From a virus, in the IMG/VR virus record IMGVR_UViG_3300027749_004509, positions 1 to 21,992 of that record: 21,992 nt of DNA. The stretch is one strand, 5' to 3'. Position 1 is the stretch's first letter; each line of letters starts with the position of its first letter. The notes under the pieces are model-generated. The model searched no databases. It worked only from the letters and a program-made list of their open reading frames with translations, and was not told where the DNA came from. Of the stretch, positions 1,410 to 18,716 are shown piece after piece. The position numbers and the translations under genes were made by a program.

Positions 1410-1625
1410 TTACTCTATCACTTCATCAATTTTACTTTCAACAATTGCCGTAATTCTCCAATCTTGGGTATACGCCTCGAAAATCTTAGTTACTTTCGCC
1501 TCAACATCAGTTGGTGTGAATCCGTTTACTAATTTTTCTTCTCTCAATTTTTTAACTTTTCCTGTTTCAGAATCTACTGAATCAATTGTAACTTTCGCTA
1601 CGAAATACTTTTCTCCTTGTTCCAT
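1410..1625 (-). CDS. Small protein resembling DUF4494-type Bacteroidota/phage proteins, 71 aa
   Basis: The gene encodes a 71-residue soluble protein starting MEQGEKYFVAKVTIDS. The pattern K-Y-F-V-A-K-V-T-I, then KVKKLREEKLVNGFTPTDVEAKV, then a short Ile-rich end, resembles the small DUF4494-type proteins common in Bacteroidota and their phages; this is from memory of the family pattern and is tentative. It starts 14 bases after the prohead protease stop, so the two are probably cotranscribed, and a strong terminator follows it. It sits between the protease and the scaffold-like gene, where T4 has nothing of this kind. No catalytic motif is visible and its function is unknown. Confidence 0.7.
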   Translation of the reverse strand: MEQGEKYFVAKVTIDSVDSETGKVKKLREEKLVNGFTPTDVEAKVTKIFEAYTQDWRITAIVESKIDEVIE

Positions 1626-1639
1626 GTTTAATAATTTTT

Positions 1640-2365
1640 TTATCTGTTTCCTAAATAATCGTTCAATTTCTTCATTAAGTCAAGCGATTTATTTCCTGAA
1701 TCTCCAACATGTCTTTCTACCGACATTCTTTTTTCTTCTTCAATGTTCTCTTCAAAATTACCTTTATCTTCTTTATTTAAGAAAAGATATGCTCCTGGTG
1801 TTGATGGTGAAGATACTAAATCAAAACAGATTAATTCAAAATCGTCTTGTACTTCATTCTGTTCACCAATCTTTTTTAAAGACCCAACACCTCTTGATGA
1901 GATACCAAGGGTTACACCTTGTCTTAAGTAGTTTGCCGCCATATCTCCTTTAGTCGATACAATTCCTCTTTCGTGGAATCCTGGACTTGTCAATAATTTT
2001 AGTTTACCCATCAATGTATCTCCTTCCCACCAAACATCCGTAATTAAATGAGACACTCGGTCTAAATCAATTAGTGAAGATTCGGGGTGATTTAATTCGG
2101 ATAAAGAGGTACCTTTTTGAATTAGTTTTTTATAATTGTCCGCCTCTCTTTTAAGGATACGTTCAGGATATATTCTACCGTTTCTATTAGGTGTATTGTA
2201 TTTTTGTAAAACCGCATAAAACTCAAATGGTTTAGAATGGTCCAACATATTCGTTGATTCTAATATGTAAGAATTTTGTTCACTTTTTGGTGAAATGTAT
2301 CCTGCGTCATACTCGACTAATATCCCTTTACCTGACTCACCAGGTTTTATAATTTTTAGATTCAT
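1640..2365 (-). CDS. Prohead core protease, T4 gp21-like
   Basis: A 241-residue serine protease-like protein expected to cleave scaffold and capsid precursors inside the prohead. Recognisable elements are NTPNRNGRIYP (residues 57-67), the catalytic His in ELNHPE (His93), the serine region LGISSRGVG (Ser156/Ser157) and DLVSSPS (from Asp182), likely the third catalytic position. These match the gp21-type phage prohead protease pattern, and the length is close to T4 gp21. Residues 200-241 form a charged tail that could be a self-cleaved targeting region. The neighbours support the call: portal upstream and scaffold-like gene downstream. A TATTTATA motif lies 13 bases before the ATG, just past the preceding stop codon. 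Confidence 0.92.
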   Translation of the reverse strand: MNLKIIKPGESGKGILVEYDAGYISPKSEQNSYILESTNMLDHSKPFEFYAVLQKYNTPNRNGRIYPERILKREADNYKKLIQKGTSLSELNHPESSLIDLDRVSHLITDVWWEGDTLMGKLKLLTSPGFHERGIVSTKGDMAANYLRQGVTLGISSRGVGSLKKIGEQNEVQDDFELICFDLVSSPSTPGAYLFLNKEDKGNFEENIEEEKRMSVERHVGDSGNKSLDLMKKLNDYLGNR

Positions 2366-2386: not shown

Positions 2387-2857
2387 TTAAAGATTGTCTA
2401 TTTGTGTTACTAATTCTTTTCTTTTACCGTTTTTAGTTGGGTAAAACTTAAAGTACTCGTGTTCATTAAAACTTTGTTGTAGAATGTCTTTTGTCATTTT
2501 TTTCAGAGAATCCCGTAATCTAACTGATTTGAAGTCTGTATCTTGTTCTTTTAGGTAAATGTTAATTTCTAAATTTAAGAATGATTTTTTTCCTGTTGAT
2601 AATCCGCTTGACCGTAAATCTAAATCAACAATAAAGTTGTCGTCAAATAAGTACCTGTCAATACTACTATGTACAATGTGTTTTATTGCTCGACTTAGGT
2701 TTAAAACAACTCTGTTCCAATTCTCGGTGTTTTTTATTGGTTCTACCCATGTTTGAAGATTTAAATAAAGTGATTTAAAGTTTATTGAGTCTACCGTGCC
2801 ATATACGACTTTTGTAGACTTGAATCCTTGGATTTGTGAGGTTTTCCCCTTTTTCAT
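2387..2857 (-). CDS. Uncharacterised phage protein, 156 aa
   Basis: I do not recognise this family. The protein is 156 residues with a basic start (MKKGKTSQIQGFKSTK), an aromatic, hydrophobic middle (LYLNLQTWVEPIKNTENW, then LSRAIKHIVHSSIDRYLFDD) and alternating strands such as FLNLEINIYLKE. No signal peptide or membrane segment is apparent. It lies between portal and protease, where T4 keeps the small core proteins gp67 and gp68, so a head-assembly role is possible from position only. It starts 95 bases from the divergent bS21 gene. The space between them holds no TATTTATA on its side, unlike most minus-strand genes here, so its promoter is unclear. Confidence 0.75.
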   Translation of the reverse strand: MKKGKTSQIQGFKSTKVVYGTVDSINFKSLYLNLQTWVEPIKNTENWNRVVLNLSRAIKHIVHSSIDRYLFDDNFIVDLDLRSSGLSTGKKSFLNLEINIYLKEQDTDFKSVRLRDSLKKMTKDILQQSFNEHEYFKFYPTKNGKRKELVTQIDNL

Positions 2858-2898
2858 TAATTTCCATATTTTTATAGTTTATTTTCCAAAAAAATAGG

Positions 2899-2906
2899 TA
2901 TATTTG
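2899..2906 (+). promoter_or_regulatory. Host-type -7 promoter element (TATATTTG) before bS21
   Basis: TATATTTG fits the Bacteroidota sigma-A -7 consensus TAnnTTTG. It lies 46 bases before the bS21 ATG. No clear -33 TTTG is present at the usual distance; the sequence there is the weak TTTATTTTCC. It points to early or host-polymerase expression, unlike the neighbouring virion genes. Confidence 0.5.
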
Positions 2907-2933
2907 TTCCAATAGTCAAAATAAATTAAAATG

Positions 2934-2938
2934 AGGAG
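2934..2938 (+). promoter_or_regulatory. Shine-Dalgarno-like AGGAG before bS21
   Basis: AGGAG (within GAGGAGAT) lies 14 bases before ATG 2953, longer than the usual spacing. Shine-Dalgarno sites are nearly absent elsewhere in the window. In Bacteroidota, bS21 helps to hide the anti-Shine-Dalgarno end of 16S rRNA, and a Shine-Dalgarno on the rpsU message has been proposed to allow autoregulation. The site also lies inside a 5-codon frame (ATG 2931 to TAG 2946). Confidence 0.4.
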
Positions 2939-2952
2939 ATATTTGTAGTTAT

Positions 2953-3144
2953 ATGCTAATAATCAAAGTAGAAAAGGGAAACATCGAAAGAGCCCTAAAA
3001 ATGTACAAAAGTAAGGTCATCAAAACAAGACAAATGTCTGAATTAAATGAACGTAAAACCTTTGTTAAAGATTCTGTGAAGAATAGAGAAATGATGAAGA
3101 AAGCAAAATACGTTCAACAGAAGTACAAATCTAACGAGGATTAA
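2953..3144 (+). CDS. rpsU: Phage-encoded 30S ribosomal protein bS21
   Basis: The 63-residue protein starts MLIIKVEKGNIERALKMYKSK and is rich in Lys and Arg, with the bS21 layout of a short beta strand, a (D/E)xALxxxKxK helix, an ELNERKTFVKDS turn and a long basic helix. It resembles flavobacterial bS21 in length and in the MLII start. bS21 sits at the 30S platform by the 16S rRNA 3' end and affects mRNA choice; phage copies have been described in large freshwater phages. It is the only plus-strand gene in the left 16.6 kb, with its own host-type -7 element and an AGGAG. It converges on the 238-aa gene with a 4-base stop overlap. The likely role is to alter or occupy host ribosomes in favour of phage messages (inference). 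Confidence 0.88.
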   Translation: MLIIKVEKGNIERALKMYKSKVIKTRQMSELNERKTFVKDSVKNREMMKKAKYVQQKYKSNED

Positions 3145-3857
3145 AGAGTTTCTTTAAGATTCTTTAATTTAAAGTAAGATAGTTTGTCATACTTTTCTGA
3201 TTCAACCTTTTCAATTGTTTCGGTAATTCTATTTAATGTACCGATATCAGAACCCTCTTGTAGGGTTTTTAGTTTTACAATTACCTCTCCTTTAATTGAA
3301 TCAAAATTTTCTTTTAATACAGAATCGTCTGTAGATAAAAATTTCATTAAATCTTTCTTTTCAGATTCGTCTAATCCATTGATATAACTTGAAATTGTTT
3401 TATTAGCAACACTTACCATTGTGGTTAGTGGTAATTTTATAATTTCCTTACTAATTGGTTTAGGTACCATTAAAGATTCTTTAATCAATTTTTTACTTTT
3501 GATTTTAGACTCGATAGTTAATACATCCGTAGAAAATAACCCGTCAACAGTTTCGTATAGGTTTTCTGATTTAACGTTGTTCACCCAAGTCTTTAAATTA
3601 TTTAAATCGGAAGGTTTAATTTTGTTAATAGAATTTTCATACATAGTAACACACTCGTGTATGTAGTCATAAACTGTATTCTCCTTTAAACCTTTTTTAG
3701 AACTTAATTCATCGTACAAATAAAATATTTTACTAATATTTTTATTTTCCAATACTAATTTTTTAAAATTCTTTAACTCATCTTTAAAAGTATCGTTAGA
3801 ATATGATTCTAATAAAACTTTTTCTATTTTAGATTTTAATATACCAAACTTAATCAT
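3141..3857 (-). CDS. Uncharacterised protein downstream of portal, 238 aa
   Basis: This 238-residue, Lys/Glu/Ser-rich and mostly helical protein starts MIKFGILKSKIEKVLLES and ends with a run of amphipathic helices (LNRITETIEKVESEKYDKL). No enzyme motif, signal peptide or membrane segment is visible. It directly follows the portal gene, 22 bases away, with a TATTTATA motif 14 bases before its ATG. In T4, gp67 and gp68, small proteins of the prohead core, follow the portal. The helical, charged composition would suit a core or chaperone-like role, but that rests on position only. Its stop overlaps the bS21 stop by 4 bases on the other strand. Confidence 0.78.
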   Translation of the reverse strand: MIKFGILKSKIEKVLLESYSNDTFKDELKNFKKLVLENKNISKIFYLYDELSSKKGLKENTVYDYIHECVTMYENSINKIKPSDLNNLKTWVNNVKSENLYETVDGLFSTDVLTIESKIKSKKLIKESLMVPKPISKEIIKLPLTTMVSVANKTISSYINGLDESEKKDLMKFLSTDDSVLKENFDSIKGEVIVKLKTLQEGSDIGTLNRITETIEKVESEKYDKLSYFKLKNLKETL

Positions 3858-3879: not shown

Positions 3880-5709
3880 TCAATCTTTTAGAAGTTTACT
3901 CAGTTGAGCCTCCATTTCTCCTAAAGAATTTTTTCCTTTGGATAAATCAATATACGAGTCTTCGTCCGTTAATGAGTTTGATTCTAATAGAATTTTTAAG
4001 TTATCTCTTTTAAATGATTCAGGAGTTACTCCCGCATCTCCACCTGGTTCAGGTCCTGAGGGTGGTGGTGGAGGTGGCATTGATTCTCCTCCTCCTTCAC
4101 CACCTCCAGGAGGTGGTGGTGGGGCTCCTCCCGCGTTTGCCGTTGACCCTGATTTGTTACCATATAATTTGTCAACATTGTCAAAGATACCTGAATGAGT
4201 AATGATTGTTGCGGTATTTGTTAACTCAGCACCAACCGCTTTCTCAATACGTTGTTGTTGTAAATCAAGTTTAATTTCTTCATCAGAGAATCCTAACACA
4301 TGTTTTTTCGCCCACGATACTGACACAGGTGCAATACCTTCGATGGCGGTAACCGCATCTTTGTAAAGTAAAATCTTCTCTTTCCATAAATCGACTTTTA
4401 ATAAATCCGCTTGAGATGATGGATTTGTTAAACCTAATGTAAAGTTCGATAACTCGTCCTCAAACCCTAATAGGAATAAGTGAATGATTGCGATTTTATT
4501 CATTTCGGCAATCATACATTTTTGAATTCTATTGATAGTTCTTGCAAAACGAATATCCATTAACGATAAGTTTTTGCCATCACCAACAATTTCCTCAAAA
4601 CCTAAAAAGGCTTTAGGAACACGTAACGCGGTTAATAATTTCTTTTGGATGTACTCAATATCGGCAATTTCCGATAAGTTCTGAGCTCCTGGTAATGTAT
4701 CGATAGGATTTGCTTGTGCAGGGTCACGAACAGGAATAAAATAATCTTGGTCAACCGCCATTTGGTTGAAACGTAAATCAACATTACCTGTTTTAGAGTC
4801 CACAACTTGGTCTCTTTTAAATTTGTTTGCAACACGTTGTACATACGCCTCAACATCTTTATCATCCATGTTACCAACAAATACTTTGAACACTCTTCTT
4901 TCAGGTGCTCTTGATGTTCTATAAATTAACATCGCATCTTCAGATAACAATAATTGTTTCCAAATACGTCTTGCCTTCTCTAACATGGAAGTACCGTATG
5001 GAAGTTTTCTATCATCACCTAATAATCTAAAGTGGGCTATTTCCCATGAATTGAATTCCATATCCTTAGCCTTCCATTTAAATCTTAAACCTTTATTTTC
5101 AATAGGTTCATCGATGTTTTGTTTTGCCGCTTGAGCTGGCATACCTCTCTCTAAACGTTCAATTTCAATGTTTGGTAATTGCATACAACCAACAATACCC
5201 TTATCTGAATCTAATTTTAAATAAACAAAATTGTCTCCGTACTTACAAGTATTTCTTACCCACATAGGTAAGTTTGTGTTGATATCTAACACATTATTAA
5301 ATAAATCGGTTAGTATTGATTTGATTCTTTTTGATTCGGAATAGATTTGTAACATATATCCATTCTCATCCACTGTTGTGGATTCTTCACCATAAATGTC
5401 TAACGCCGCAGAAATTTCGGGAGTATATTCCATAGATTCGTAATCGTAAAATGATGCCAATCTTGTTGGTTCGTAATAAACCGATTGGGTATACATGTTA
5501 CTTTCAATCTTTGTCCATTGATTGGCTAAGTAATAAGTTTGTTGAGCTTGTAATAACTCTTTGTCGTATTCTTGTTTAGAAGTAGTCTTTAATAAGTCTT
5601 TTCTATCGAACTTATATGTTGGGTAATCTTGGTTTAACAGGGCGTTAGGACCAAATGCGTGAGATAATCTCTGCCATACTGTTAAATTACCGTTATTATT
5701 ATTTTCCAT
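3880..5709 (-). CDS. Portal vertex protein, T4 gp20-like
   Basis: This 609-residue protein is expected to form the 12-subunit ring at one capsid vertex through which DNA is packaged and the tail attaches. Typical gp20-type segments are present: YTPEISAALDIYGEES (residues 95-110), LPMWVRNTCKYGDNFVYL (147-164), an SRAPERRVFKV segment in the middle, and GDGKNLSLMDIRFARTINR near residue 390. It is somewhat longer than T4 gp20, partly from a C-terminal insert of about 40 residues made almost entirely of Pro and Gly runs, followed by a charged helical tail. The order terminase, portal, protease and scaffold supports the call. A TATTTATT motif lies 23 bases before the ATG. Confidence 0.93.
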   Translation of the reverse strand: MENNNNGNLTVWQRLSHAFGPNALLNQDYPTYKFDRKDLLKTTSKQEYDKELLQAQQTYYLANQWTKIESNMYTQSVYYEPTRLASFYDYESMEYTPEISAALDIYGEESTTVDENGYMLQIYSESKRIKSILTDLFNNVLDINTNLPMWVRNTCKYGDNFVYLKLDSDKGIVGCMQLPNIEIERLERGMPAQAAKQNIDEPIENKGLRFKWKAKDMEFNSWEIAHFRLLGDDRKLPYGTSMLEKARRIWKQLLLSEDAMLIYRTSRAPERRVFKVFVGNMDDKDVEAYVQRVANKFKRDQVVDSKTGNVDLRFNQMAVDQDYFIPVRDPAQANPIDTLPGAQNLSEIADIEYIQKKLLTALRVPKAFLGFEEIVGDGKNLSLMDIRFARTINRIQKCMIAEMNKIAIIHLFLLGFEDELSNFTLGLTNPSSQADLLKVDLWKEKILLYKDAVTAIEGIAPVSVSWAKKHVLGFSDEEIKLDLQQQRIEKAVGAELTNTATIITHSGIFDNVDKLYGNKSGSTANAGGAPPPPPGGGEGGGESMPPPPPPSGPEPGGDAGVTPESFKRDNLKILLESNSLTDEDSYIDLSKGKNSLGEMEAQLSKLLKD

Positions 5710-9944: not shown

Positions 9945-11285
9945 TTATAAACCTAAAGAAGATAAATCAATGTCATCTAAGTCATCTTCATCATCGTCAT
10001 TAGACATACTATCTTCGTAATCTTGTTTCTTCAAATCCTTAACAATTTCATCAACCATTCTTTGGATAAATTGAGTCCCTTGAGGGTCACCATTTAAAAT
10101 CAATTTTGCAACTCTAAAAAATTCTTTAGCGTCCAATTTAGAGAATCTCATGAAAAGGTAATGTTGGATATGTTTCATGTCATCTTCGAATAATTCCATC
10201 GGATATGTTGCGACAAATTTCTCCCAAAATACAGGACCTAATCTTGAATCCCAAATCTCCGCAGGTAATGTGTCTTCAGCATTCATAACCAATTCTTGTT
10301 GTTTTGGGTCATCAGGTAAACCATGTGTACCAAATACCTCATAAACACCTTTTACTAATTCGTGAATAAGTAATGGGAATGTTGCCGCTCTTGCTTTAAC
10401 TGTTGGTGGGTCAGTTTCTTCATCAACCTCACTTTGACCCATTTGTCCACCACCTGAACCTGCCATACCTTCCATATCAGGATATATCCAATACATGTGT
10501 TCCATTAATGATTGTGTTACACCGTAAAGGTTTAACAATTGTGGGTCTAATCTATTTAATTCTTCACCAACCAAAACATACATATGACCACCTTTAAACG
10601 CCGCCCCTTGTATTAATGAGTTAATGAATCTTCTTTTTGCTTTTTCTAAATTGAATTGTTCAAACGCATCTGCAAAATTTAACAAATCTTCAGTGTGTTC
10701 TTCCGCCTCTTTAAACGCATCTTCAACTTCATCTTCTTCAGGTTCTTGAGGTTCTGTTCTCATACCTTCAGCGGCGCCCATACCACCATGAACCAATTTA
10801 GCATCAAACTGTAACGCTCCCTTAGGAATTCCAAGTTCTTTCTTAACTAAATCAATCGCTAAATTTTCAAGGTATTCTTTGTTTTGACTTTCTATTCTTG
10901 AGATTTGTTGTAAACCTCCCATAGCCATACCCATAAGGTTCATTAAAGGATTTCTACCTTGTAATGGAGCGGTATTACCTAAATAACGTCTAACCTTGTC
11001 TACAGAGTCTTTAAATCGTTTTGATGAGACAACCTCAATAAAGTCTTTATCTCCACCTGGTATCGCAGGATGTTCGTGATATGGAGTTTCTTTTGAAGTA
11101 ATTTTTCTTTCAATCCCAGGTTCCATTCTTTCGGGTCCTTCGTAATCAATCGGTGCCTCTTTTAAACTTGATTTAATTTCAGTTAAAAGAGAACGTTCTC
11201 TATTTGTTAAACCTTCAGATAAAGATTTTCTCTCTAACTGTCTTTTGGTTCTTAGTATTTTTTCCATTTTTAAATTCAGGCCCAT
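9945..11285 (-). CDS. Uncharacterised conserved-type phage protein, 446 aa
   Basis: I do not recognise a named family. The protein is 446 residues. It has a helical N-terminus rich in Arg and Lys, a Gly/Met-rich segment near 105-125 (NPLMNLMGMAMGGLQQ), an acidic stretch near 180-200, and a well-ordered central region with FNLEKAKRRFINSLIQGAAFKGG. Then come a Gly-rich loop, aromatic helices (LGPVFWEKFVATYPMELFEDD) and an extremely acidic tail (SNDDDEDDLDDIDLSSLGL). The ordered core with charged ends suits a virion-internal or assembly protein. ATG 11285 is one base from the preceding stop; an in-frame ATG at 11267 (MEKILRTKRQLERK) is an equally good start. It is the last gene of a tight four-gene unit upstream of terminase. 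Confidence 0.75.
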   Translation of the reverse strand: MGLNLKMEKILRTKRQLERKSLSEGLTNRERSLLTEIKSSLKEAPIDYEGPERMEPGIERKITSKETPYHEHPAIPGGDKDFIEVVSSKRFKDSVDKVRRYLGNTAPLQGRNPLMNLMGMAMGGLQQISRIESQNKEYLENLAIDLVKKELGIPKGALQFDAKLVHGGMGAAEGMRTEPQEPEEDEVEDAFKEAEEHTEDLLNFADAFEQFNLEKAKRRFINSLIQGAAFKGGHMYVLVGEELNRLDPQLLNLYGVTQSLMEHMYWIYPDMEGMAGSGGGQMGQSEVDEETDPPTVKARAATFPLLIHELVKGVYEVFGTHGLPDDPKQQELVMNAEDTLPAEIWDSRLGPVFWEKFVATYPMELFEDDMKHIQHYLFMRFSKLDAKEFFRVAKLILNGDPQGTQFIQRMVDEIVKDLKKQDYEDSMSNDDDEDDLDDIDLSSLGL

Positions 11286-14095: not shown

Positions 14096-16036
14096 TTACG
14101 CATATATTTTAGGTGGTGTTACGTCATCTTTTGATAAAACTTTAGCGACTAAATCTCCTGTGCCCCAAGTTTTTAGTGATTCACATTTACTTAATTTGTC
14201 TGAACCAATATCATTTTTTAACCCATTAGTTATACATGTATAATACGGTAACAATAATGTTTTAACGGTTGCCTCAATACCATAATTAGGCGTCGAATAA
14301 TTTTTAACCCCTACTTTATTGTAATCTGACATTCCTGAATCTTTACTTAACTTAAATGTTGTATTAAATGGGTTGTTTGTCGCTTTACCTCCTTCTCCCT
14401 TTCTCCAAGCATAAAAGAATTTTAAATTTTCCTCAGTAATTGGTGCTCCAACTCCCGTTAAAATTGCGGTGTAAAAATCCTTATCGTTACCAACATTAAT
14501 TTTGTCAAAATCTGAGGTAGTTTGAATTTTACTTAAATCGGTATCTTTAAATCCTTTTTCGGTCAATAACTCAAACAATTTTGTTAAGTCTTCTTCAGAT
14601 AATTTACCATCGGAAGTCACACCATTATCGGATTCGAATGACCTAACCGCCATTTCAGTTTCAGGCCCAAATAAACCATCAACACCCCATTTAGGCAGTG
14701 AATAACCTAAAAACTGTAATGCGGTTTGTATCTTTTCAACATCCTTATCATAAGGGATTTTTGAGTTTGGTTTTTTTAAGTTCACAAATTCTTTTCCTGA
14801 TTTTGAGATTGTGTCTAAATCCGATAAAAATGTTTCCCCTGTTTCTTTTGATGGTGTTTGAGCACTCTCTTTTGAACCTGTAAATATTTGGTCAGAATTG
14901 ACTAAAAGTTCTTTTAAGTGGTGTCCCCTGGGTAACCCTATATGTACGTGAGTAATATCTGGATGGTCTAACCATTCCGAAATTGCCCCAATATAGTCAC
15001 CAACTTTAACAACGTCCCCTTTTTGTAATTTAACATCTTTTAAATGTGTGTAAAAAATGTCAGGAAATTCCCCTGACCCTTTGATTGATACTTGAGTACC
15101 AAATATTTTACCTGAGTTTTTACCCGTATCTCTAATTTCACGAACAACTCCTTCAGTGTAAGAATTTACGACCGTTCCTGGAGGTGAAAATATATCCCAA
15201 GCATTATCGGACTCCCAATTACCAAGAGCTCTTCCACCATGGTTTTTTGGACCATTTTCTAAGTCAGTTTTAAAAGTTCCTCCAATATTTGTTGTGGATT
15301 CCTTAATTGATAATTTTTTATCGGTATATTCATTTTCAAAATCAAATAATTTTTGGATATACCCGTTTCTTCTTAAAACTTTAAATACCAAATTTTCATC
15401 TGAATATTCACCATCTTTTTCCAATCCGCAAGTTCTATACTTCTTAATTTTATCTTTATATTTTTGGATTAATTTTTTAGCATCGTCAAGAGGTTCATCT
15501 TGAGCGTTTTCAATCGCCCCATCAATAATCTCCATCCATTTGGTTGCCTTATTCTTAATTAAGTTAGTGTCAACCTCAACATTTTCTTTTTTAGGTTTAT
15601 TTGTCCATTCGTCATGTAATACAGAATAGACCCCACTACTAAAATGTGCTTCAGACTCGTTTTGTACATATAACTCCACCTCATAACCGTATATCGTTAT
15701 GTTATGGTTATCATTATACATTGTTTTTTTTAGGGTGAATAACTCAGTGTATAACGGTAATTGTGATTCTGAAAATTGGTTGAAGTCTGCTAAGATATGT
15801 AAATCAATGTCTGAAAAGGTTGACCAATTATAGTTTGCCAAAGACCCTGTCATAATTATATCTGACACAACAACATCGACTTTAAGGAATTCTATAAATT
15901 CGTAGGCAATATCAAGAAGACGACCCCTAACTGTAGGGTTCATCGTTTTTTCGTCATTTCCTGACGATTTCCAAATCTTTGGATTTAATTCATCCTTTAA
16001 ATGAAAACTGTTTAAAATGTTTTTTAGGTTACTCAT
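14096..16036 (-). CDS. Nucleotidyltransferase-like domain fused to M23, peptidoglycan-binding and lysozyme-like domains, 646 aa
   Basis: ATG 16036 (MSNLKNILNS) is chosen over an adjacent TTG at 16039. Domain 1 (about 15-240) carries the nucleotidyltransferase signature TGSLANYNWSTFSDIDLHIL (63-82), with Asp76 and Asp78. Domain 2 (265-375) is M23-like: NAWDIFSPPGTVV (Asp281), FYTHLKD (His331), LQKGDVVKVGDYIG and THVHIG (His363/His365). Domain 3 (430-490) is a peptidoglycan-binding repeat with KIQTALQFLGY and VDGLFGPETEMAVRSF. Domain 4 (515-635) is lysozyme-like: FYAWRKGEGGKATNNPFNTT (541-560), with Glu548 a candidate catalytic acid. It probably cuts or holds the cell wall during infection as part of the virion. 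There is no signal peptide or holin nearby, which argues against a plain lysis enzyme. The role of domain 1 is unknown. Confidence 0.85.
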   Translation of the reverse strand: MSNLKNILNSFHLKDELNPKIWKSSGNDEKTMNPTVRGRLLDIAYEFIEFLKVDVVVSDIIMTGSLANYNWSTFSDIDLHILADFNQFSESQLPLYTELFTLKKTMYNDNHNITIYGYEVELYVQNESEAHFSSGVYSVLHDEWTNKPKKENVEVDTNLIKNKATKWMEIIDGAIENAQDEPLDDAKKLIQKYKDKIKKYRTCGLEKDGEYSDENLVFKVLRRNGYIQKLFDFENEYTDKKLSIKESTTNIGGTFKTDLENGPKNHGGRALGNWESDNAWDIFSPPGTVVNSYTEGVVREIRDTGKNSGKIFGTQVSIKGSGEFPDIFYTHLKDVKLQKGDVVKVGDYIGAISEWLDHPDITHVHIGLPRGHHLKELLVNSDQIFTGSKESAQTPSKETGETFLSDLDTISKSGKEFVNLKKPNSKIPYDKDVEKIQTALQFLGYSLPKWGVDGLFGPETEMAVRSFESDNGVTSDGKLSEEDLTKLFELLTEKGFKDTDLSKIQTTSDFDKINVGNDKDFYTAILTGVGAPITEENLKFFYAWRKGEGGKATNNPFNTTFKLSKDSGMSDYNKVGVKNYSTPNYGIEATVKTLLLPYYTCITNGLKNDIGSDKLSKCESLKTWGTGDLVAKVLSKDDVTPPKIYA

Positions 16037-16040
16037 CAAA

Positions 16041-16676: not shown

Positions 16677-18716
16677 ATGATAGAATCAAAAGATAGTAGC
16701 GGACCTAATAAAGATAAAGGAAGTAGTGGTGATTCTGCCACACCTGTTTTAGACAACTTTAGTAGAGACCTAATTAAATTAGCCGAAGAAGGTAAATTAG
16801 ACCCTGTGATTGGACGAGAAAGAGAAATAACAAGAATTGCTCAAATCCTTTCAAGACGGAAAAAAAACAACCCAATCATTATTGGTGAGCCAGGTTGTGG
16901 TAAAACTGCAATTGTTGAAGGTTTGGCGATTAAAATTTTTAACGGAGACTGCCCAAGAAATTTAATGGACAAACGAATATTATCTTTAGATATGACCTCG
17001 ATAGTTGCTGGTACAAAATATCGTGGTCAATTTGAAGAACGTATGAAAGTAATTATTGAGGAATTACAAAACGCTCCAAGTATCATTATTTTTATTGATG
17101 AAATACACACCATTGTTGGTGCAGGTAATTCGTCAGGTTCAATGGACGCATCTAATATCTTTAAACCCGCTCTTGCTCGAGGAGAAATCCAATGTATTGG
17201 GGCAACGACTTTAGACGAGTATCGTAAGAATTTTGAAAAAGACGGAGCTTTAGAAAGACGATTCCAAAAGGTAATTGTTGATTCAGCAACAAAAGAAGAA
17301 ACGATTCAAATTCTACAACACAGTAAAGAGAGATACGAAAATTACCATAAAGTAAAATACTCTGACGAAATTTTATCACTATGTGTTGATTTGGCAGAAC
17401 GATATATCACAGATAGAGAATTCCCTGATAAAGCGTTTGACATTATTGATGAAGTCGGGGCAAGAAGTCAGGTTGAGGTGAAAATGCCCGAAATTATTGA
17501 AAGACTAAAAGAACAGGCTCATGATATTAAACAAGAAAAACTTGATGTCGTTAAAAAACAAAACTATGAAGAGGCGGCAAGTCTAAGAGATAAGGAACGA
17601 AGAATTTTAGATAAATTAGATTTGGAAAAGAAAAAATTCGAGTCTGAGTTACAAACTCAAAAGAAAGAAGTGACTGTTGAGTTGGTGTACGAAGTCGTTT
17701 CAAATATGACTAAGATTCCACTGTCTAAATTAAATGCTAATGAGACACAATTATTGGCCAAGTTAGACGAAAGGTTGGGTAGTAAAGTTATTGGTCAATC
17801 TGAAGCAGTATCAAGAATTGCAAAGTCTATTCGAAGAAATAGATTGGGTATTAAAGACCCTAACAAACCAATTGGTTCATTCATTTTCTTGGGGTCAACA
17901 GGTGTCGGTAAAACACATTTGGCGAAACAATTGGCTAAAGAAATGTTTGGTAGCGAAGAAAATTTGATTAGAATGGATATGTCAGAATTCCAAGAAAAGC
18001 ATACCATATCTCGTTTAATCGGAGCACCTCCAGGATATGTTGGTTATGATGAAGGCGGACAATTAACTGAACAGGTTAAAAATAAACCTTATTCTGTAAT
18101 CTTATTTGATGAGATTGAGAAGGCAAATAAAGACATTTTCTCAACGTTGTTACAAGTGTTGGATGATGGTCATATTACTGACGGATTAGGTAGAAAAATT
18201 AATTTCAAAAATTGTGTAATCATTATGACTTCAAATATTGGGGTTAAAAAACTAGAAGACTTTGGGACAGGTGTTGGATTTAAATCTTCAACAAATACTT
18301 ATGTCGAGGAAGAATATAAACGAGACATGTTGAAAAAGGAACTTAAAAAATTCTTCGCACCTGAATTCTTAAACAGAATTGATGAGGTCGTTATCTTCAA
18401 CACACTAAAACGAGATGAGGTTAAACAAATCGTTAAATTAGAAATGGACAAACTTTGTGAAAGATTAGTTAAGTTAAAATATAACATAACTTACGATGAA
18501 TCCGTATTGGAGTTAATTTCAGAAGTTGGTTTTGATGAGACCTATGGTGCAAGACCACTGAAGAGAGCAATCCAAGACAAAGTCGAGGATTTTATTTCCG
18601 AAGAAGTTTTAAAGGGAACTGTTCTTGAGGATGTTAGTTATGTTCTATATGTCGACAATACCGATGTTAAACTAAAGACAGTTAAAAAGACTAAAAAGAA
18701 AAAAGGGGAAAATTAA
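16677..18716 (+). CDS. ClpA/ClpC-type AAA+ unfoldase without N-domain
   Basis: The 679-residue protein has two AAA+ modules. In the first, Walker A is GEPGCGKT (70-77), the pore loop GTKYRG (112-117), Walker B IIIFIDE (136-142) and the Arg-finger region ALERRF (191-196). A UVR-like coiled coil follows (NYEEAASLRDKERRI, 296-310). In the second, Walker A is GSTGVGKT (406-413), the pore loop GYVGYDEG (453-460), Walker B VILFDE (474-479), then FLNRIDE (564-570) and sensor-2 GARPLKR (624-630). VGF at 533-535 lies where ClpC and ClpA carry the loop that docks to ClpP. The family's N-terminal adaptor-binding repeats are absent, replaced by about 25 Ser/Gly/Lys residues; typical ClpC is about 800 residues. 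No clpP gene is present here, so a host ClpP is the likely partner. It sits alone on the plus strand with its own promoter and terminator. Confidence 0.95.
   Translation: MIESKDSSGPNKDKGSSGDSATPVLDNFSRDLIKLAEEGKLDPVIGREREITRIAQILSRRKKNNPIIIGEPGCGKTAIVEGLAIKIFNGDCPRNLMDKRILSLDMTSIVAGTKYRGQFEERMKVIIEELQNAPSIIIFIDEIHTIVGAGNSSGSMDASNIFKPALARGEIQCIGATTLDEYRKNFEKDGALERRFQKVIVDSATKEETIQILQHSKERYENYHKVKYSDEILSLCVDLAERYITDREFPDKAFDIIDEVGARSQVEVKMPEIIERLKEQAHDIKQEKLDVVKKQNYEEAASLRDKERRILDKLDLEKKKFESELQTQKKEVTVELVYEVVSNMTKIPLSKLNANETQLLAKLDERLGSKVIGQSEAVSRIAKSIRRNRLGIKDPNKPIGSFIFLGSTGVGKTHLAKQLAKEMFGSEENLIRMDMSEFQEKHTISRLIGAPPGYVGYDEGGQLTEQVKNKPYSVILFDEIEKANKDIFSTLLQVLDDGHITDGLGRKINFKNCVIIMTSNIGVKKLEDFGTGVGFKSSTNTYVEEEYKRDMLKKELKKFFAPEFLNRIDEVVIFNTLKRDEVKQIVKLEMDKLCERLVKLKYNITYDESVLELISEVGFDETYGARPLKRAIQDKVEDFISEEVLKGTVLEDVSYVLYVDNTDVKLKTVKKTKKKKGEN

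Follow-up and report, generated by a model that had tools for sequence, protein, structure and literature searches.

Genes for ribosomal protein bS21 have been described before in phages of several kinds, and the closest described systems are those of Chen et al. (2022; PMC9723584), who reported 47 Bacteroidetes phage genomes with bS21 reversed inside the same gene block as considered here. In that study, lake metatranscriptomes showed bS21 to be expressed along with the capsid genes; substitution in the ribosome was proposed, and packaging of the phage protein was raised as a possibility. The main text of that paper makes no mention of a promoter, ribosome-binding site, leader or autoregulation. 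The bS21 of Pelagibacter phage HTVC008M, likewise phage-encoded but from a different phage and host group, and likened here by description only, is reported to enter E. coli ribosomes (Mizuno et al. 2019, PMC6375957, as cited in PMC9723584). In Flavobacterium johnsoniae, rpsU carries an extended Shine-Dalgarno (SD) sequence, which ribosomes devoid of bS21 read best, resulting in autoregulation of bS21 (McNutt et al. 2023, PMC9976891). The same authors speculated that such phages might turn a protease on host bS21.

The window analysed here, i.e. the whole stretch of 21,992 nucleotides of viral DNA (IMG/VR record IMGVR_UViG_3300027749_004509), contains a plus-strand bS21 gene that breaks a minus-strand head block, as had been predicted from the sequence. 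The genes around it are the following:

1640-2365, minus strand: prohead protease
2387-2857, minus strand: gp156, the divergent neighbour, a conserved head-block protein at the position of T4 gene 68
2953-3144, plus strand: phage bS21 gene, 63 residues, ATG start (PF01165; PDB 7jil_z; 79 collinear loci)
3141-3857, minus strand: gp238, the convergent neighbour, with a stop codon overlapping that of bS21 in 156/156 loci
3880-5709, minus strand: portal

The gene thus lies among the portal, prohead protease and terminase genes of a phage that is T4-like and of the Bacteroidota. As in clades a-e of Chen et al., two hypothetical genes flank bS21, and TerL, portal, protease and MCP are encoded on the other strand; the main observation, a reversed bS21 in the head block, is thus already known from that work. 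The genomes of Chen et al. are 293-331 kb without integrase, and a relative of 322 kb was found here, while the window itself is a 22-kb fragment. All 79 collinear viral loci show the same gene order including the reversed bS21, with genes missing only at contig ends. Similarly, bS21 adjoins gp156 in 76 of the 80 loci with gp156, and in the other four gp156 starts less than 100 bases from a contig end.

Other arrangements exist in related head blocks. In Microcystis phage Mel-JY01 (PP395634.1), with a portal 41% identical to that of the window, RpsU is also found in a T4-like head block (rpsU at 10557-10784), but there it shares its strand with the genes around it and follows the protease, and the protein has 75 residues and is of a different bS21 type. 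Hence, there is more than one way in which T4-like head blocks accommodate bS21. A related head block, with a portal 37% identical, is also present in Flavobacterium phage immuto_2-6A; in this phage no bS21 is annotated in the interval from portal to MCP.

The 63-residue product is a true bS21. It matches the Pfam profile PF01165 with 39.4 bits (curated cut-off 27) over profile positions 2-54 of 55, i.e. nearly its full length, and the nearest solved structure is that of F. johnsoniae bS21 (7jil_z, E 5.9e-9). No non-ribosomal family matched above its cut-off in Pfam and PHROGs searches, a finding that would have spoken against the original prediction; PHROGs gave no match for bS21, gp156 or gp238. 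The N-terminus, MLIIKV, is of the flavobacterial type as predicted. The window bS21 is 46% identical to that of F. johnsoniae, and its identity to the bS21 of any host compared does not exceed 49%. Alignment with Flavobacterium bS21, which had been suggested as a check, covered 48 distinct phage and 45 Flavobacterium proteins. The aromatic residue at position 54 (Tyr54 in F. johnsoniae numbering), which marks the Bacteroidia type, is kept in 48/48 phage proteins (38 Tyr, 10 His; Tyr in the window). In contrast, positions 21, 23 and 24 separate all 48 phage from all 45 host proteins, and position 28 does so for 44 of the 45 host proteins, the phage residues being S, V, I and Q at 21, 23, 24 and 28 without exception; the sequences behind these counts are related rather than independent. 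The fixed changes R21S, F23V, D24I, G27R/K and T28Q are concentrated in the N-terminal helix and the turn that follows, the part near the incoming mRNA, while the basic C-terminal half and the rRNA-side residues are kept as in ribosomal bS21. The phages of Chen et al. also have a Bacteroidetes-type bS21 with an aromatic residue at 54 and N-terminal divergence, and their diverged sites match ours at 21, 23, the acidic site (24 here, Asp25 in the paper) and 28.

In a tree of 105 bS21 proteins, the phage sequences form one clade (100/100) near Flavobacterium with a long stem, and the deeper branching is unsure as the alignment has only 64 columns. A first protein scan of genome contigs gave no bacterial relative of the phage bS21. 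The bS21 of one Bacteroidota genome, with Lys at the usual Gly27, groups beside the phage clade (support 93/86), and might possibly represent a relative of the donor. Mean amino-acid identity of bS21 between relatives is 0.67, compared to 0.45 at four-fold sites, indicating that the phage gene is under purifying selection.

Several short elements could be identified in the leader between gp156 and bS21, and one beyond the bS21 stop codon:

2877-2885, no strand given: GTTTATTTT block; GTTTAT invariant in 60/60 distinct leaders
2889-2896, minus strand: TATTTTTT, -7-like element of gp156; TA at a fixed N20 from TTTG in 60/60 leaders
2899-2906, plus strand: TATATTTG, -7-like element of bS21; TAHHTTTG in 29/60 leaders
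2914-2921: AGTCAAAA block; GTCAAA invariant in 60/60 leaders; minus strand TTTTGACT is the putative -33 element of gp156
2933-2938, plus strand: GAGGAG, a weak SD-like run 14 nt from the ATG
3249-3269, plus strand: terminator-like hairpin inside gp238, on the bS21 strand, about 105 nt past the bS21 stop

All 60 distinct leaders share GTTTAT, a TA and, always 18 nt from this TA, GTCAAA, in contrast to an identity of 0.446 at four-fold sites of bS21. The best-conserved promoter-like geometry is TTTG-N20-TA, which runs on the minus strand towards gp156 (60/60); it has the spacing of host-type promoters, and its -7 element is without the usual final G. If this minus-strand promoter is right, GTTTATTTT would be the start region of the gp156 transcript. 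In the 322-kb relative (G013), two upstream motif classes were seen, host-type TTTG-N19/20-TATCTTTG and late-type ATATTTATAA. The host-type pattern TTTG-N19/20-TAnnTTTG occurs there at 13 sites against about 0.2 expected, and ATATTTAT in 42 upstream regions against 6 expected; the late-type ATATTTAT[AT] was found in 38 of 168 upstream regions (5.1 expected), and in 5 of 11 in the window (0.15 expected).

The bS21 leader fits neither class well. The original prediction gave bS21 a host-type promoter of its own, and TATATTTG indeed fits the -7 consensus TAHHTTTG, but TTTG is absent at 19-20 nt upstream of it, the spacing taken from the 322-kb relative (TAGT or AGTT is found instead), and fewer than half of the leaders have the consensus, so that a separate host-type promoter for bS21 is at best weakly indicated. 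The accompanying claim that the neighbours, and not bS21, carry the late motif holds for the enrichment upstream of other genes, but not for gp156, where ATATTTAT[AT] precedes the gene in 2/60 leaders. Overlapping divergent promoters for gp156 and bS21 appear to be the best reading of this leader, and the two genes are probably transcribed in opposite directions from one strongly conserved region of about 45 bp that they share. Three other candidates were rejected: an TATTTATA-type late promoter for bS21 (ATATTTAT[AT] in 7/60 leaders only), GATATTTGTA directly 5' of the ATG as promoter (lost in several clades and too near the start codon), and AGTCAAAA as a phage-wide element (not enriched, with 2 found in the window against 2.2 expected). 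A combination of AGTCAAAA and either TATATTT or GTTTATT is found roughly once in each record, 5' of bS21; TATATTT was not found in leaders of the clade of the 322-kb relative.

At the 3' end, the overlap of the bS21 and gp238 stop codons takes the form TTAA or CTAA, and the two transcripts must therefore overlap if both genes are transcribed to their ends. This agrees with the predicted antisense read-through as far as gp238 is concerned. The predicted reach into the portal gene is unlikely in the window clade because of the hairpin at 3249-3269. A conserved terminator beyond the bS21 stop was considered and dismissed, as only 11/60 loci have one, and this particular hairpin is confined to the window clade.

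The clearest difference from the host gene is found in the translation signals. SD energy was calculated for the pairing between the 16S tail and the 25 nt that precede the start codon (with RNAduplex, not the published program), using a 14-nt tail from the established 16S sequence, whose core (...GGATCACCTCCTTT) could be located in one of three Bacteroidota genomes; energies below -13 kcal/mol were taken as extended SD. All 80 Flavobacterium rpsU leaders (17 distinct sequences) have an extended SD, with energies from -18.4 to -22.8 kcal/mol, whereas none of the 60 distinct phage bS21 leaders does (median -2.2, minimum -10.3 kcal/mol), a contrast that was unchanged with three anti-SD strings. 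Six of the 60, including the window, have SD-like runs between -8 and -10.3 kcal/mol; the window leader, at -8.6 kcal/mol due to GAGGAG, falls short of an extended SD, and this run is not kept in the closest sister phages. The phage host is inferred and the contrast is set against Flavobacterium rpsU; as only 7 of 14 scored rpsU loci from the wider phylum are below -13 kcal/mol (two of the 14 being probably mis-called), it depends on a Flavobacterium-like host. Compared to Flavobacterium rpsU (PMC9976891), the phage gene thus encodes a homologous protein, both probably sequestering the anti-SD, but has neither the host leader sequence nor an extended SD, and carries fixed changes at 21, 23, 24, 27 and 28. 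In the passages searched of PMC9723584 and PMC9976891 the SD contrast is not reported (most subscription journals and all preprints lay outside the scope of the search); this contrast, the leader blocks and the stop-codon overlap appear to be new, and together they allow a specific test. That Flavobacterium rpsU always has a very strong SD and the phage gene never bears on why many aquatic phages carry bS21.

We propose, with somewhat better than even confidence, that the phage gene encodes a bS21 that takes the place of the host protein in the 30S subunit while capsids are being produced, keeping the anti-SD hidden and escaping the feedback on rpsU. Incorporation, displacement of host bS21 and escape from feedback, like the promoter assignment above, are inferred from sequence comparison. 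Given that the phage proteins retain the aromatic residue at 54 and the basic C-terminal half, and that phage messages are poor in SD sequences, the 16S 3' tail is probably sequestered as before, and messages without SD would continue to be used. Translation of host rpsU depends on bS21-lacking ribosomes via its extended SD; the phage leaders are without it, so the phage bS21 genes appear free of this autoregulatory feedback. As ribosomes fill up, host rpsU should shut down while synthesis of phage bS21 should not, and this one-sided shutdown would shift the ribosome pool to the phage bS21 form. That the phage protein is such a feedback-free competitor, which once in ribosomes shuts off host rpsU and so converts the pool, is put forward tentatively, as a possibility falling clearly short of probable. 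If the phage message does ignore bS21 feedback, this would be a specific phage route to remodel ribosomes of Bacteroidota, where bS21 gates the anti-SD.

The strongest alternative follows Chen et al. (2022): hybrid ribosomes would prefer phage messages via the altered N-terminal helix, with the escape from feedback being incidental. The fixed N-terminal differences between the 48 phage and 45 host proteins fit this, as does the published expression of bS21 with capsid genes (PMC9723584), but beyond SD poverty, which the host shares, no phage-specific feature of the start region was found. We regard it as a live rival only slightly short of probable, and selection of messages could act together with feedback escape. 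A non-ribosomal role, with bS21 now a head or packaged protein and therefore located in the head block, would account for this location and for the conserved order, and some phage genomes carry a head-block bS21 in another position and orientation; it is nevertheless unlikely, given that the rRNA-side residues and the aromatic residue at 54 are conserved as in ribosomal bS21 and that family searches pointed to a ribosomal protein only. Least likely is a release of the 16S tail by phage bS21 that would open SD-led messages to translation: bS21 does gate the anti-SD in Bacteroidia (PMC9976891), but the aromatic residue at 54 is retained in 48/48 phage proteins, and the genes of the 322-kb relative are SD-poor, with 9/359 below -8 kcal/mol against 31 in a mock region. 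These genome-wide energies likewise give no support to SD-driven phage translation. The original suggestion that bS21 alters message choice via the anti-SD is therefore reasonable in the link that it draws, the residue at 54 being kept, while the SD poverty of phage genes speaks against an exposed anti-SD.

The flanking proteins were also modelled. For gp156 a confident alpha/beta model was obtained (pTM 0.80), and a PDB fold search with it gave no match at E<=0.001; its one clear structural relative is an uncharacterised myovirus protein, A0A8S5L9A5 (Foldseek E 2e-10). The gp238 model (pTM 0.49) was too weak for a fold search. Elsewhere in the window, a small DUF4494 protein (1410-1625, minus strand) is encoded between the prohead protease and an acidic scaffold-like gene. 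A protein of 647 residues (14096-16039, minus strand) combines an M23 peptidase with a peptidoglycan-binding domain, and its N-terminus is nucleotidyltransferase-like, albeit below the Pfam cut-off. Finally, a ClpB/ClpC-like AAA ATPase (phrog_4871; 16677-18716) is also encoded on the plus strand among minus-strand genes.
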